DNA from: Streptomyces sp. NBC_00376
GTDB taxonomy: Bacteria; Actinomycetota; Actinomycetes; Streptomycetales; Streptomycetaceae
Assembly: GCF_036077095.1 (NCBI RefSeq)
Contig: NZ_CP107960.1
Span: 2,108,001-2,172,000 of the forward strand
Length of the DNA: 64,000 nt
Direction: 5' to 3'
The stretch's first letter is position 1; each line of letters starts with the position of its first letter. The position numbers and the translations under genes were made by a program. Positions 40,061 to 52,900 of the stretch are shown here, piece after piece. Under the pieces are notes generated by a model. It worked only from the letters and a program-made list of their open reading frames with translations. It was not told where the DNA came from and did no database searches.

Positions 40061-40105
40061 ATGTCGTTTGAACACGGTGCACATTCCGGCAAGGGGGAAT
40101 TATGA
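40061..40105 (+). CDS. 14-residue leader ORF with a TTA codon
   Basis: ATG at 40061 sits directly behind GAGGAGGTGC, the strongest ribosome site in this region, and encodes MSFEHGAHSGKGEL. The last sense codon is TTA (40100-40102), the bldA-dependent Leu codon, and the TGA stop overlaps the ATG of the next gene (TTATGA). Translation of the downstream enzyme could therefore be coupled to decoding of TTA. No function as a peptide is implied. Seen in sequence; expression not shown. Confidence 0.5.
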   Translation: MSFEHGAHSGKGEL

Positions 40106-40776
40106 AAGACCCGGCTCACCGCCGTCTGGCGGGCTGGATAATGGGCGAGGAATTCTCGTGCCTGGCGGCCAAATCGGCCGTACGCCGAAAGACTCTGACG
40201 CTCGTTCAACTGGGCAAGATGGGCAGCTCGGACACCACGTCGGACCTGCACACGGCGATTTCCGAATTCGTCTCCGAGGAATTGTCCCCGCACGAGAATT
40301 TCGCGACGCTCGTCGCCGTGTTCGAGGAACCGAACGGACTCACCGAGCCGGAATTCGACGAGTTGATGTGGCAGCAGCTCACCGACCTGCACCACCTCGA
40401 CCTCGACCGGGGGTTCGCCTGGGCACCGGACGTCGCCGAGGACCCGGCCTCGCCGGACTTCGCGTTCAGTCTGGCCGGGCACCCGTTCTTCGTGGTCGGC
40501 ATGCACGAGCACGCCTCCCGGATCTCCCGCCGCTACGACGGCCCCGCGCTCGCCTTCAACTCCAACCACCAGTTCCGGCGGTTGAAGCAGTCAGGCGTCT
40601 ACTACGGCCTCCAGCGCCGTATCCGGCAGCGCGAAGAGCGGCTGCAGCACTCCATCAATCCCAACCTCACCGAGTTCGGCGAGGCGTCGGACGCCCGCCA
40701 GTACTCCGGCTCGGCAACCGACGAGCAATGGCGCTGCCCCTTCCAACCGCGGGGCGGCACGGCGTCCGGCTCCTGA
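40102..40776 (+). CDS. GntA/YqcI-YcgG family haem-dependent N-hydroxylase
   Basis: A 224-residue protein of the YqcI/YcgG family. The signature end of the family is clear: NPNLTEFGEASDARQYSG followed by WRCPF, preceded by GHPFFVVGMHEHASRISRR and AFNSNHQFRRLK. A characterised member, GntA of guanitoxin biosynthesis, hydroxylates a guanidine nitrogen using haem; relatives occur in biosynthetic clusters making N-oxygenated amino acids. Here the likely job is N-hydroxylation of an amine or guanidine precursor for the NRPS. Start fixed by a GGGGGAATT site and overlap with the leader ORF. Confidence 0.85.
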   Translation: MKDPAHRRLAGWIMGEEFSCLAAKSAVRRKTLTLVQLGKMGSSDTTSDLHTAISEFVSEELSPHENFATLVAVFEEPNGLTEPEFDELMWQQLTDLHHLDLDRGFAWAPDVAEDPASPDFAFSLAGHPFFVVGMHEHASRISRRYDGPALAFNSNHQFRRLKQSGVYYGLQRRIRQREERLQHSINPNLTEFGEASDARQYSGSATDEQWRCPFQPRGGTASGS

Positions 40777-49900: not shown

Positions 49901-52900
49901 CCAGGGCCCCACGCAGTGCGGCGAGGTCCAGCGGGCCGGTCAGCCGCAGGGCACCGCCGGAGTTGTACTCGGTGCTCTCCGGGTCGAGTTCGGCCGCGAA
50001 CCACAGCCTGCGCTGGGCGTACGAGAGCGGCAGCACGCCACCGTCCCGCGCGGCCGGGGCCGGCGGGGCGTCCGGGCCGAAGGCTCCGGGCAGGTCGTCG
50101 GCCGCGCCGATCTCGGCGGCCAGGGCGGCGACGGTGGGGTGGTCGAAGAGGGTGCGGACGGCGGCCGGGTAGCCGGCCCGGCGCAAGCGCGAGACGGCCT
50201 GGATGCTGAGCAGCGAGTCGCCGCCGAGGCCGAAGAAGTCGTCGGCCGCGCCGATCCGTTCGGCGCCGAGCACCTCCGCGAAGACGGTGGCCACGGCACG
50301 CTCGGCCTCGGTCGCGGGCGCGATGTACTCGCGTACGAGGGTGGACAGGTCGGGGGCCGGCAGGGCCTTGCGGTCGACCTTGCCGTTGGCGTTGAGCGGG
50401 AAGGCGTCCAGGACCACGCAGACGGCCGGGACCATGTACTCCGGCAGCGAGCGGGCCACGAACTCGCGCAGCTCGGCCGGATGGGCGCCGTCGGCGACGG
50501 CGTAGCCGACGAGCCGCCGGGTGCCGGGCTGGTCCTCGCGGACCACGGCGACCGCCTGGGACACGGCAGGGTGCCGGGTCAGCGCGGCCTCGACCTCGCC
50601 CGGTTCGATGCGGTGGCCGCGTACCTTGACCTGGTGGTCGGTGCGGCCGAGGAACTCCAGCTGGCCGTCTGTACGCCGCCGTACGAGGTCGCCCGTACGG
50701 TACATGCGGCCGCCGGTGAACGGGTTGGCCACGAAGGCGCTCGCGGTCAGGCCCGGGCGGCCCGCGTAGCCGCGGGCGACGCCGGGTCCGGCGAGGTGGA
50801 GCTCGCCGGCGGTGCCGTCGGGCACCGGCCGTAGCCAGCCGTCCAGCACGAAGGCGCGGGCGCCGTCGATCGCCCGGCCGATCGGGGGCGTGGCGGTGGC
50901 CGGGGCGAGCGGGTCGCTGAGGGTGGCGGCGACGGTGGTCTCGGTCGGCCCGTAGGCGTTGACCAGGATCCGGCCGGGCGCCCAACGGGCGGGGATCTCG
51001 GCGGGCATCGCCTCGCCACCGGAGACCAGTGCGCGCAGGTGCGGCAGCGGTATGTCGGGCAGGGTGGAGAGCGCGGCGAGCGGCAGCATGGCGTGGGTGA
51101 TCCGCTGCTCCTCCAGCAGCCGGGCGAGGGGCTCGCCGACGGTCTGGTCGGGTCCGGCGAGCACCAGGGCGGCGCCGACCGTCCAGGCGTTGACGAGGTC
51201 GCCCATGGCGACGTCGAAGCCCAGGGAGACGCTCTGCAGGATGCGGGAGTCGCCGTCGAGGTCCAGGGCCCGGGCGTGGGCGGCACCCAGGTCGCGCAGG
51301 CCGCGGTGGGTCACGGAGACGCCCTTGGGGGTGCCGGTGGAGCCGGAGGTGTAGATGAGATAGGCCGCCGCGTCCGGGTGGCCGGGGCGGACGGGTGGGA
51401 CCGGGCTGGTCTCCGGGCCGAGGGCGAGGAGGTCCACCGCGTTCAGCTCCGGGGCTGCGGAGTTGCCGAGTACCAGCCGGGCTCCCGCGTCGGCGGCCAT
51501 GAAGGCGAGCCGGTCGGCGGGGTGGGCCGGATCGAGCGGCAGGTAGACCGCGCCCGTCTTGGCCACCGCGAGCAGCGAGACCAGCCAGTCGACGCCGCGC
51601 GGCAGGCTGACGCCGACCACGGTCTCGGGGCCGATGCCGCTGTCGGCGAGCCGGTGGGCCAGGCCGTTGGCGCGGGCGTCCAGTTCGCCGTACGAGAGCA
51701 CGGTGCCCCCGTCGACCACGGCGGGTGCCTCGGGCCGGCGGGCCGCCTGGGCCTCGAAGAGGCCGGGCAGGGTCACGGTCGGGCGCGGCCGGCCGGCGGG
51801 CCCGGAGGCCGTGCCGGTGCCGGCGGTGAACCGGTCGCGCTCGGCCGGGGTGAGCAGCGGGATGCGGGCCAGGCTCTCCTCGTCGAGCAGGCCGCGGAGC
51901 AGGGTGGCGAGCCGCTCGGAGAGCCGCCGCGCGGCCGTGTCCCCGAATACCGCGGGGTCGTAGGACACGCGCAGCGAGACGCCCGGGGCGTTGTCGCCGA
52001 CGAGCTGGCGGCCGGTGAAGGCGGTCAGCGAGAGCGGGTAGTCCCCGCCCTGGACGGCGGCGTCCGCCTCGGTGACGGCGAGACCGTGGCGGGCCGCGAG
52101 GTCGTCGGCAACCGGGTAGTTCTCGAAGACCAGGACGCTCTCGAAGAGGCGGGTGCCGGCCGGCAGGTCGGCGAGCGCGGTGAGCTCGGGCAGCGAGAGG
52201 TATTCGTGGGCGCGGGACTCCCACTGTTCGGCCTGGAGCTGCTGGAGCCACTGGACGACCGGGGTGGCGGGGTCGAGGACCGTGCGTACCGGAACCGTGT
52301 TGATGAACAGGCCGAGCATGCCTTCCGCCTCGGCCAGGTCGGCCGGGCGCCCGGACGTGGTGGCACCGAAGACGATGTCGTTCCGGCCCGAGCAGGCGGA
52401 GAGCAGCAGCGCCCAGGCGCCCTGGACCACCGCGTTCACGGTCAGCCGGTGACGGCGCGCGAACTCCCCGATCTCGGTGGGCAGGGTGCCGGGCAGCTCG
52501 ACGTCGAGATGGCGGATGCCGTCGGCCGGCCCGGCGTCCGGGTCGGCGGGGAGGGTGAGGGCCGTGTCGTAGCCGGCCAGTACGGTGCGCCAGTGCGTCC
52601 GGTCGGCATCGGTGTCGCGGGCGTCGAGCCAGGCCAGGTAGTCCCGGTAGGGGGCGCGGACCTGCGGTGTGCCGCCGGCGTAGCGGGCGAAGACGTCGTC
52701 CAGCAGCTGCGGGGTGCTCCAGCCGTCGAGCAGGAGGTGGTGGAAGGTCCACACCAACTGGACGCGGGTGCCGCCGAGGGTGGCGAGGGACAGCCGCATC
52801 AGCGGTGCGTGGCCGAGCCGGATGGTGTGGAAGTCGCCGCGCCGGAGGTCCGCGAGGCGTTCGGCGCGGGCGGCGGCGTCCAGTGCCGTCCAGTCCTCGG

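Follow-up and report, generated by a model that had tools for sequence, protein, structure and literature searches.

A YqcI/YcgG-type protein is a candidate arginine N5-hydroxylase in a pentaminomycin/BE-18257-type gene cluster of Streptomyces sp. NBC_00376

Two large NRPS genes and a YqcI/YcgG gene at one locus

The 64,000-nucleotide stretch of Streptomyces sp. NBC_00376 analysed here (the window; contig NZ_CP107960.1, positions 2,108,001 to 2,172,000) carries two large nonribosomal peptide synthetase (NRPS) genes, NRPS-A and NRPS-B, and a small gene for a protein of the YqcI/YcgG family (Table 1). A sequence-only reading of this DNA had proposed that the cluster makes an N-hydroxylated, arginine-like residue that module 4 of NRPS-A installs, or else that the enzyme acts on the peptide. 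Our analysis supports this proposal and places the genes in a cluster of known kind, which that reading did not recognise: by its NRPSs and cyclase, the window cluster is of the pentaminomycin/BE-18257 type, and its YqcI/YcgG protein is, with good but not full confidence, the arginine N5-hydroxylase, whatever the timing of the reaction. The span over which the earlier proposal was drawn (40102-50059) also takes in a gene for a small ATP-binding cassette (ABC)-type ATPase (41765-42313, minus strand) and NRPS module 5, both of them cluster components outside the proposed pair of hydroxylase and A4.

Table 1. Features of the locus, in window coordinates. Domains: A, adenylation; T, carrier; C, condensation; E, epimerase. 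DAHP, 3-deoxy-D-arabino-heptulosonate 7-phosphate.
Feature	Position	Strand	Basis
YqcI/YcgG (GntA/AglA-type) putative heme-thiolate N-hydroxylase, proposed arginine N5-hydroxylase	40102..40776	+	PF08892, NF041366, AglA fold, Cys20 on AglA Cys44
NRPS-A, 5642 aa, A-T / C-A-T-E / C-A-T / C-A-T / C-A-T-E, counterpart of CppM/PenN2 (pentaminomycin synthetase)	42525..59453	-	Pfam on two halves, motif order, codes
A4 adenylation domain, code DAVDVGFCD; predicted for arginine or N5-hydroxyarginine	47217..48704	-	A-domain alignment; 74-75% to A4 of S. cacaoi, ISL-98
Pocket-bearing part of A4 (search query)	47799..48152	-	82% S. cacaoi, 78% ISL-98, 100% ADI95-17
NRPS-B (BE-18257-type synthetase), C-terminal part	59565..64000	-	Motifs, Pfam counts, codes
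Small ABC-type ATPase-like protein	41765..42313	-	PF00005 31.9 bits; 58% S. cacaoi, 61% ISL-98, 98% ADI95-17
trpE-like anthranilate synthase component I, divergent from YqcI gene, conserved	38232..39956	-	Pfam; TIGR00564 495 bits, just below cutoff 517.7
trpG-like glutamine amidotransferase domain; frame open further upstream	37648..38202	-	PF00117 at residues 557-735 of ORF 37648-39870
trpD-like	36621..37655	-	PF00591
trpC-like	35818..36624	-	PF00218
Class II DAHP synthase	34394..35821	-	TIGR01358 708.9 bits
ABC transporter ATP-binding protein, travels with trp block	33333..34541	-	Conservation among relatives

Pfam searches of NRPS-A, run on its two halves, counted six condensation-type domains, five AMP-binding domains, and five carrier stretches. 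The whole of NRPS-B has 6120 amino acids (aa) and spans 59565-77927 in window numbering, so that the window ends inside the gene; its domain order, read from motifs with counts from Pfam, is A-T / C-A-T-E / C-A-T-E / C-A-T / C-A-T-E. Epimerase domains thus fall in modules 2 and 5 of NRPS-A and in modules 2, 3, and 5 of NRPS-B, and no thioesterase family was found in either protein with Pfam at E ≤ 0.001. The two open reading frames (ORFs) are approximately 110 bp apart, and beside NRPS-B, just outside the window (77884-79299), lies a gene for a stand-alone cyclase of the penicillin-binding protein (PBP) type with a beta-lactamase fold, which matches SurE (6ksu, 1.1e-71) and Ulm16 and has counterparts in S. 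cacaoi (65%) and ISL-98 (71%). This layout, together with the order of epimerases and codes, corresponds to that published for PenN2/CppM and PenN1/CppB from S. cacaoi strains, whose product structures are known and in which residue 4 of the pentaminomycins is N5-hydroxy-L-arginine (PMC7827011, PMC7565604).

The A-domain codes, read from an alignment of A domains, agree with this assignment at most places compared. The module-1 code of NRPS-A, DALWMGVI, differs at one of eight places from the published PenN2 code DALWMGVV. Besides this published code, five S. cacaoi domains were read: NRPS-A A3 and NRPS-B A4 and A5 equal those of the window, NRPS-A A4 differs at one place (F/L at 322), and NRPS-A A5 differs at several (DAMMVGAIS against DPFIIGAIA). 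Against ISL-98, the NRPS-B codes A2-A5 are equal and A1 differs (DALWMGVIM against DALWMGAIT); the NRPS-A A3 code is equal, and the other four NRPS-A codes show one or two differences. The cytochrome P450 genes known from S. cacaoi were not taken as defining the cluster type, as ISL-98 also lacks them. As a separate observation, a 1.33-kb stretch shared by the first A domain of NRPS-A (58003-59316) and that of NRPS-B (76390-77706 in window numbering) shows 93% identity, a sign of duplication or gene conversion.

The YqcI/YcgG protein has the predicted fold and heme residues of AglA

The presence of a YqcI/YcgG-type enzyme, claimed earlier from the letters alone, was borne out. The 224-aa product of the gene scores 185.6 bits with PF08892 (Pfam cutoff 27) and 249 bits with the NCBIfam model NF041366 (GntA; cutoff 145), and it is the sole PF08892 match of the whole 10.04-Mb genome. 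An AlphaFold2 model (mean predicted local distance difference test score 87.4), compared with the PDB using Foldseek, matched only AglA crystal structures at E ≤ 0.001 (five entries); template modelling scores normalised by query length were 0.76-0.79, with a best hit at E 2.5e-10 and a score of 0.79. In this model the protein therefore adopts the AglA sandwich fold.

A profile alignment placed Cys20 on the AglA heme-ligand Cys44. The heme-propionate arginines Arg166 and Arg200 of AglA correspond to Arg143 and Arg175, and its gating phenylalanines Phe152 and Phe182 to Phe130 and Phe158, while Gln177, Arg179, and Lys196 correspond to Asn153, Asn155, and Gln171; the functions of the AglA residues are those given in PMC12866846. 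Hence the axial cysteine and two propionate arginines are present, and the third propionate residue, Lys196, is replaced by Gln171. The known chemistry of the YqcI/YcgG family is guanidine N-hydroxylation (PMC12866846, PMC10849742). By profile and modelled fold, the window protein is a member of this family of heme-dependent guanidine N-hydroxylases, with heme binding and catalysis as predicted properties.

The enzyme gene is conserved in related clusters

A scan of genome contigs with the A4 pocket region returned three loci, in Streptomyces sp. ADI95-17 (100%), S. cacaoi NBRC 12748 (82%), and Streptomyces sp. ISL-98 (78%). A first check within approximately 10 kb of A4 saw a YqcI gene in ADI95-17 only. 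When the whole genomes were searched, each of the three proved to have a single PF08892 gene, so that all four genomes, with that of the window, have it. In every relative the gene is on the same contig as NRPS-A and is next along from trpE of a trpE-trpG-trpD-trpC-DAHP synthase-ABC block (the trp block). The ISL-98 protein is 72% identical to that of the window, and there the trp block is inverted and the gene lies about 9.6 kb from the NRPS-A stop; the S. cacaoi NBRC 12748 protein is 69% identical, and its gene lies about 35 kb from the stop of NRPS2 and about 1.2 kb from the trpE match. Across most of the compared stretch, ADI95-17 and the window share more than 99% identity, and these loci represent three independent lineages at most. 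The spacing also varies: on contig 17 of S. cacaoi NBRC 12748 (about 123.7-156.6 kb; L064-L066, L051), some 33 kb separate the end of NRPS2 from the ABC-YqcI-trp block, compared with a gap of less than 0.5 kb between NRPS end and block in the window and ISL-98.

Of 392 Streptomyces genomes, 49, counting that of the window, have a relative of the enzyme at E ≤ 0.001. When 18 loci from the 48 other positive genomes were read, together with about 10 kb of flanking sequence to either side as far as the contig reached, seven had an adenylation-type motif. A search of 395 relatives at E ≤ 1e-60 for further clusters gave only genomes already found. In a tree of 43 proteins, the copies of the window, S. 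cacaoi, and ISL-98 group with five database proteins (eight in all) with support of 91/78, under the limit of 95/80, and a larger group of 18 rows that holds the same three copies has support of 97/89.

Further observations come from some of the other loci. In a second cluster type, a one-module NRPS with the code DAGDVGFAD is divergent from a YqcI/YcgG gene of 45-47% identity (L031, 5636-9715 and ~10001-10639; L033, 856-4185 and 4379-5086); L031 also has an acyl-ligase-like AMP-binding gene nearby, and the product could be a small acylated hydroxyarginine compound. At L030 (344-8160 and ~9608-10246), a 54% relative lies near genes for an ATP-grasp amino-acid ligase, an amino-acid kinase, and a prolyl oligopeptidase, perhaps for a ligase-made hydroxyarginine peptide. 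The code DACQSGLIQ recurs in a one-module-sized NRPS gene adjoining a YqcI/YcgG gene (L040, 9965-14992) and in A domains within a few kb of one (L041, L043). On a plasmid of Streptomyces sp. P9-2B-2, a gntA-type gene has a LysE-family exporter gene close by, and the annotation shows no NRPS in the vicinity (L109, 14250-16639).

Cytochrome P450 genes lie outside the conserved cluster

Beside the end of NRPS1 on contig 85 of S. cacaoi, genes for HATPase, roadblock/LC7, DUF742, and ATP-binding proteins are followed by two P450 genes, an order that we take to be that of a conservon. The first of these P450s, CppI, falls just below the Pfam cutoff; as a Pfam search misses CppI-type proteins, direct searches with CppI and CppJ and a whole-genome CppI search were used instead. 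At E ≤ 1e-3, neither CppI nor CppJ matched anything in the 160 kb searched on the window chromosome (2,088,001-2,248,000), in the 60 kb surrounding the ADI95-17 cluster, or in the 70 kb taken from ISL-98, whereas the same search recovered both genes in the S. cacaoi stretch. No pair of P450 genes lies between the NRPSs of the window cluster, and the idea of a P450 as a conserved part of the cluster was dropped after this search. The closest CppI relatives, at 49% in the window genome and 50% in ISL-98, are beside DUF742 genes far from the cluster, and DUF742 genes with P450 neighbours recur elsewhere in these genomes. No CppI/CppJ relative is in the cluster stretches of the window genome, ADI95-17, or ISL-98, and the enzyme gene is in all four clusters. 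On the stretches compared, the conserved cluster thus excludes the P450s and includes the YqcI/YcgG gene, the only candidate hydroxylase that we found conserved in the related clusters.

The module-4 pocket is acidic, as are those of many other A domains

The sequence-only reading had given the A4 pocket as D-A-V-D-V-G-F-C-D with two extra aspartates and had taken this acidity as a sign of an N-hydroxy-guanidino residue. The A-domain alignment confirmed the aspartates, at positions 278 and 331; the code columns (235, 236, 239, 278, 299, 301, 322, 330, and 331) follow GrsA numbering. As a sign, the acidity was weak evidence by itself, and as proof it was rejected, because both aspartates also occur in 25 of the 28 Streptomyces domains of this type used for comparison. 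These 28 loci were kept from the best matches after the window and ADI95-17 had been set aside, and they are a part of the matches, which at E ≤ 1e-24 came from 203 of 392 genomes; 21 of the 28 share the code DTEDMGFVD and are not independent.

Position 330 is Cys or Ala at all seven loci whose cluster or surroundings include a YqcI gene, and Val at all 28 comparison loci; in four of the 28 genomes (G349, G181, G265, G164), a YqcI gene does occur, but on a different contig from the A domain. Cys or Ala at this place could leave room for an N-OH group, a hint that A4 may select hydroxylated arginine; it is only a hint because the seven loci (window, ADI95-17, S. cacaoi, ISL-98, and G070, G313, and G283 of the second cluster type) amount to two lineages.

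Proposed pathway, timing, and the P450 alternative

From the gene content, module order, codes, family, predicted fold, and conservation described above, and from the product structures published for S. cacaoi strains, we infer what this strain makes and how, where, and when the arginine is hydroxylated. NRPS-A would build a cyclic pentapeptide of an L-Val/Leu-like residue, D-Val, L-Trp, N5-hydroxy-L-Arg, and a D-hydrophobic residue, which the stand-alone PBP-type cyclase would release. The YqcI/YcgG protein would bind heme through Cys20 and use O2 and electrons from a reductase to hydroxylate the side-chain N5 (delta) nitrogen of arginine. We lean slightly towards free L-arginine as the substrate, as for ChmN, with module 4 then loading N5-hydroxy-arginine; carrier-bound or peptide arginine would be the alternative substrate, as AglA acts on an arginine conjugate. 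A wider proposal, which we put forward tentatively and at somewhat less than even confidence, is that the YqcI/YcgG protein is the arginine N5-hydroxylase of all pentaminomycin clusters, that the P450s are bystanders of an inserted conservon, and that the A4 pocket, widened at position 330, selects pre-formed N5-hydroxyarginine.

The same enzyme could act late, with A4 loading plain arginine and the YqcI/YcgG protein hydroxylating carrier-bound arginine or the finished peptide, a minority possibility that we take seriously and that is compatible with its role as the hydroxylase. AglA takes an arginine conjugate as its substrate and has essentially no activity towards free arginine (PMC12866846), the published scheme puts hydroxylation after the modules (PMC7565604), and many A domains with the D278/D331 pair have no YqcI gene near. 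Early action is favoured instead by ChmN, a member of the same family that hydroxylates free L-arginine (PMC10849742), by the residues at position 330, and by the replacement of the phosphonate-binding Lys196 of AglA with Gln171. Changing that lysine to Arg led AglA to use free arginine at N-delta, and changing it to Met or His led to N-omega, Gln not being among the eight variants (PMC12866846); Gln171 is thus compatible with the use of free arginine without showing it.

A competing explanation, which we regard as unlikely, assigns arginine hydroxylation to the P450s (CppI/CppJ, PenB/PenC), as both cluster papers proposed (PMC7827011, PMC7565604). The YqcI/YcgG protein would then do something else, and the window strain would make an unhydroxylated arginine peptide or use another enzyme. 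The main texts of the two papers do not contain the word YcgG, and no paper that we saw in the literature searches joins pentaminomycin hydroxylation with YcgG. The strongest point for the P450s is that S. albus J1074 with pCPP2 (48 kb, cppA-cppO; GenBank MW038823), a plasmid that carries them, made pentaminomycins C/H, D, and E, mostly at levels close to the detection limit (PMC7827011). In NBRC 12748, some 35 kb separate the YqcI gene from the stop of NRPS2, and the gene is therefore probably missing from pCPP2 if strain CA-170360 is laid out alike, in which case S. albus or the cloned P450s may have done the hydroxylation. A host copy in S. albus J1074 is possible but was not likely in advance, given the 49 positive genomes among 392; the SurE marker used toward this strain was found in 0 of the 392. 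Against the P450s stand their absence from the cluster stretches of the window genome, ADI95-17, and ISL-98, their position in S. cacaoi at the tail of a conservon-like operon, the location of the closest CppI relatives of the window genome and ISL-98 beside DUF742 genes elsewhere, and the established guanidine chemistry of the YqcI/YcgG family.

It is mainly the pCPP2 result that keeps us from assigning arginine hydroxylation to the YqcI/YcgG protein more firmly, and further observations weigh on the same side. The sequence-only match of the protein to AglA is weak (E 0.03; E 2.6e-7 with a profile of 29 relatives). A CppI-like gene (44%) lies by a DUF742 gene at 2,068,927-2,070,093 of the window contig, 38 kb left of the window start, and ADI95-17 has another some 20 kb past its conserved block; these distances from the clusters, and that of about 24 kb between the ISL-98 cyclase and a P450 gene outside it, also count against the P450s. 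Relatives of the enzyme occur on plasmids as well, and the two such records read show no NRPS annotated within 12-16 kb, in an incomplete gene table. The YqcI gene also moves with the trp block, which is inverted in ISL-98, and its link to arginine accordingly rests on the published product, not on position. This association, with the gene divergent from trpE in the window and all three relatives even where the block is inverted, might suggest that the enzyme serves the trp block by acting on an indole or anthranilate nitrogen, a very improbable role given that the tryptophan of the published peptides is unmodified and their only hydroxyl is on arginine (PMC7565604) and that we met no tryptophan-acting member in the parts of the family literature consulted.

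The residue itself is already known from the pentaminomycins; what is new, if the YqcI/YcgG protein is the hydroxylase, as we favour, is a likely correction of its enzyme, a heme YqcI/YcgG protein rather than the P450s. The cluster is now also found in strains outside S. cacaoi, the only species given in the text of PMC7827011, and its N-hydroxylase and A domain are offered as a pair for putting N-hydroxyarginine into peptides.

Neighbouring genes

The trpE-like and trpG-like genes of Table 1 were at first read as one trpE-trpG fusion, which was dropped in favour of two frames. Whether cppO is the counterpart of the small ABC-type ATPase gene is unsure, as the S. cacaoi homologue has 191 codons from ATG and cppO is given as 175. 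A Mutator-family transposase gene lies left of the cluster (26659-27948), and a YcaO-family gene lies outside the window at 86658-88973 in its numbering; the ISL-98 homologue of the latter (75%) is about 1.8 kb beyond the YqcI gene.

Comparison with known systems

The window cluster most resembles the cpp/pen cluster of S. cacaoi. Both have two five-module NRPSs with the same epimerase places and mostly equal codes among those read, a PBP-type cyclase, the trp block, ABC/FtsX genes, and a YqcI/YcgG gene next along from trpE. They differ in the conservon and P450s, which lie between the NRPS genes in S. cacaoi and are absent from the window cluster, and in the YqcI/YcgG-trp block, which is directly beside NRPS-A in the window but about 35 kb off in NBRC 12748.

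Among characterised family members, AglA of argolaphos, the solved YqcI/YcgG structure, shares the predicted fold, the Cys heme ligand, the two heme-propionate arginines, and the gating phenylalanines. It differs in overall sequence (18-21% identity over the structural alignments) and at Lys196, Gln177, and Arg179 (Gln171, Asn153, and Asn155 here), and no phosphonate gene was noticed in the window cluster, although no search was aimed at such genes. GntA of guanitoxin is linked by the NCBIfam model, whose cutoff the window protein passes, but the neighbours here are NRPS and trp genes, and the NCBI GntA name is a family label and not the likely reaction in this cluster. ChmN of chalkophomycin, compared by its description, also dihydroxylates, with an SznF homologue as proposed partner towards graminine (PMC10849742); no SznF homologue was seen among the scanned ORFs of the window cluster, in a scan not aimed at one. 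Like the window protein, ChmN is a family member in an NRPS cluster, where it makes N-delta-hydroxyarginine from free arginine (PMC10849742).

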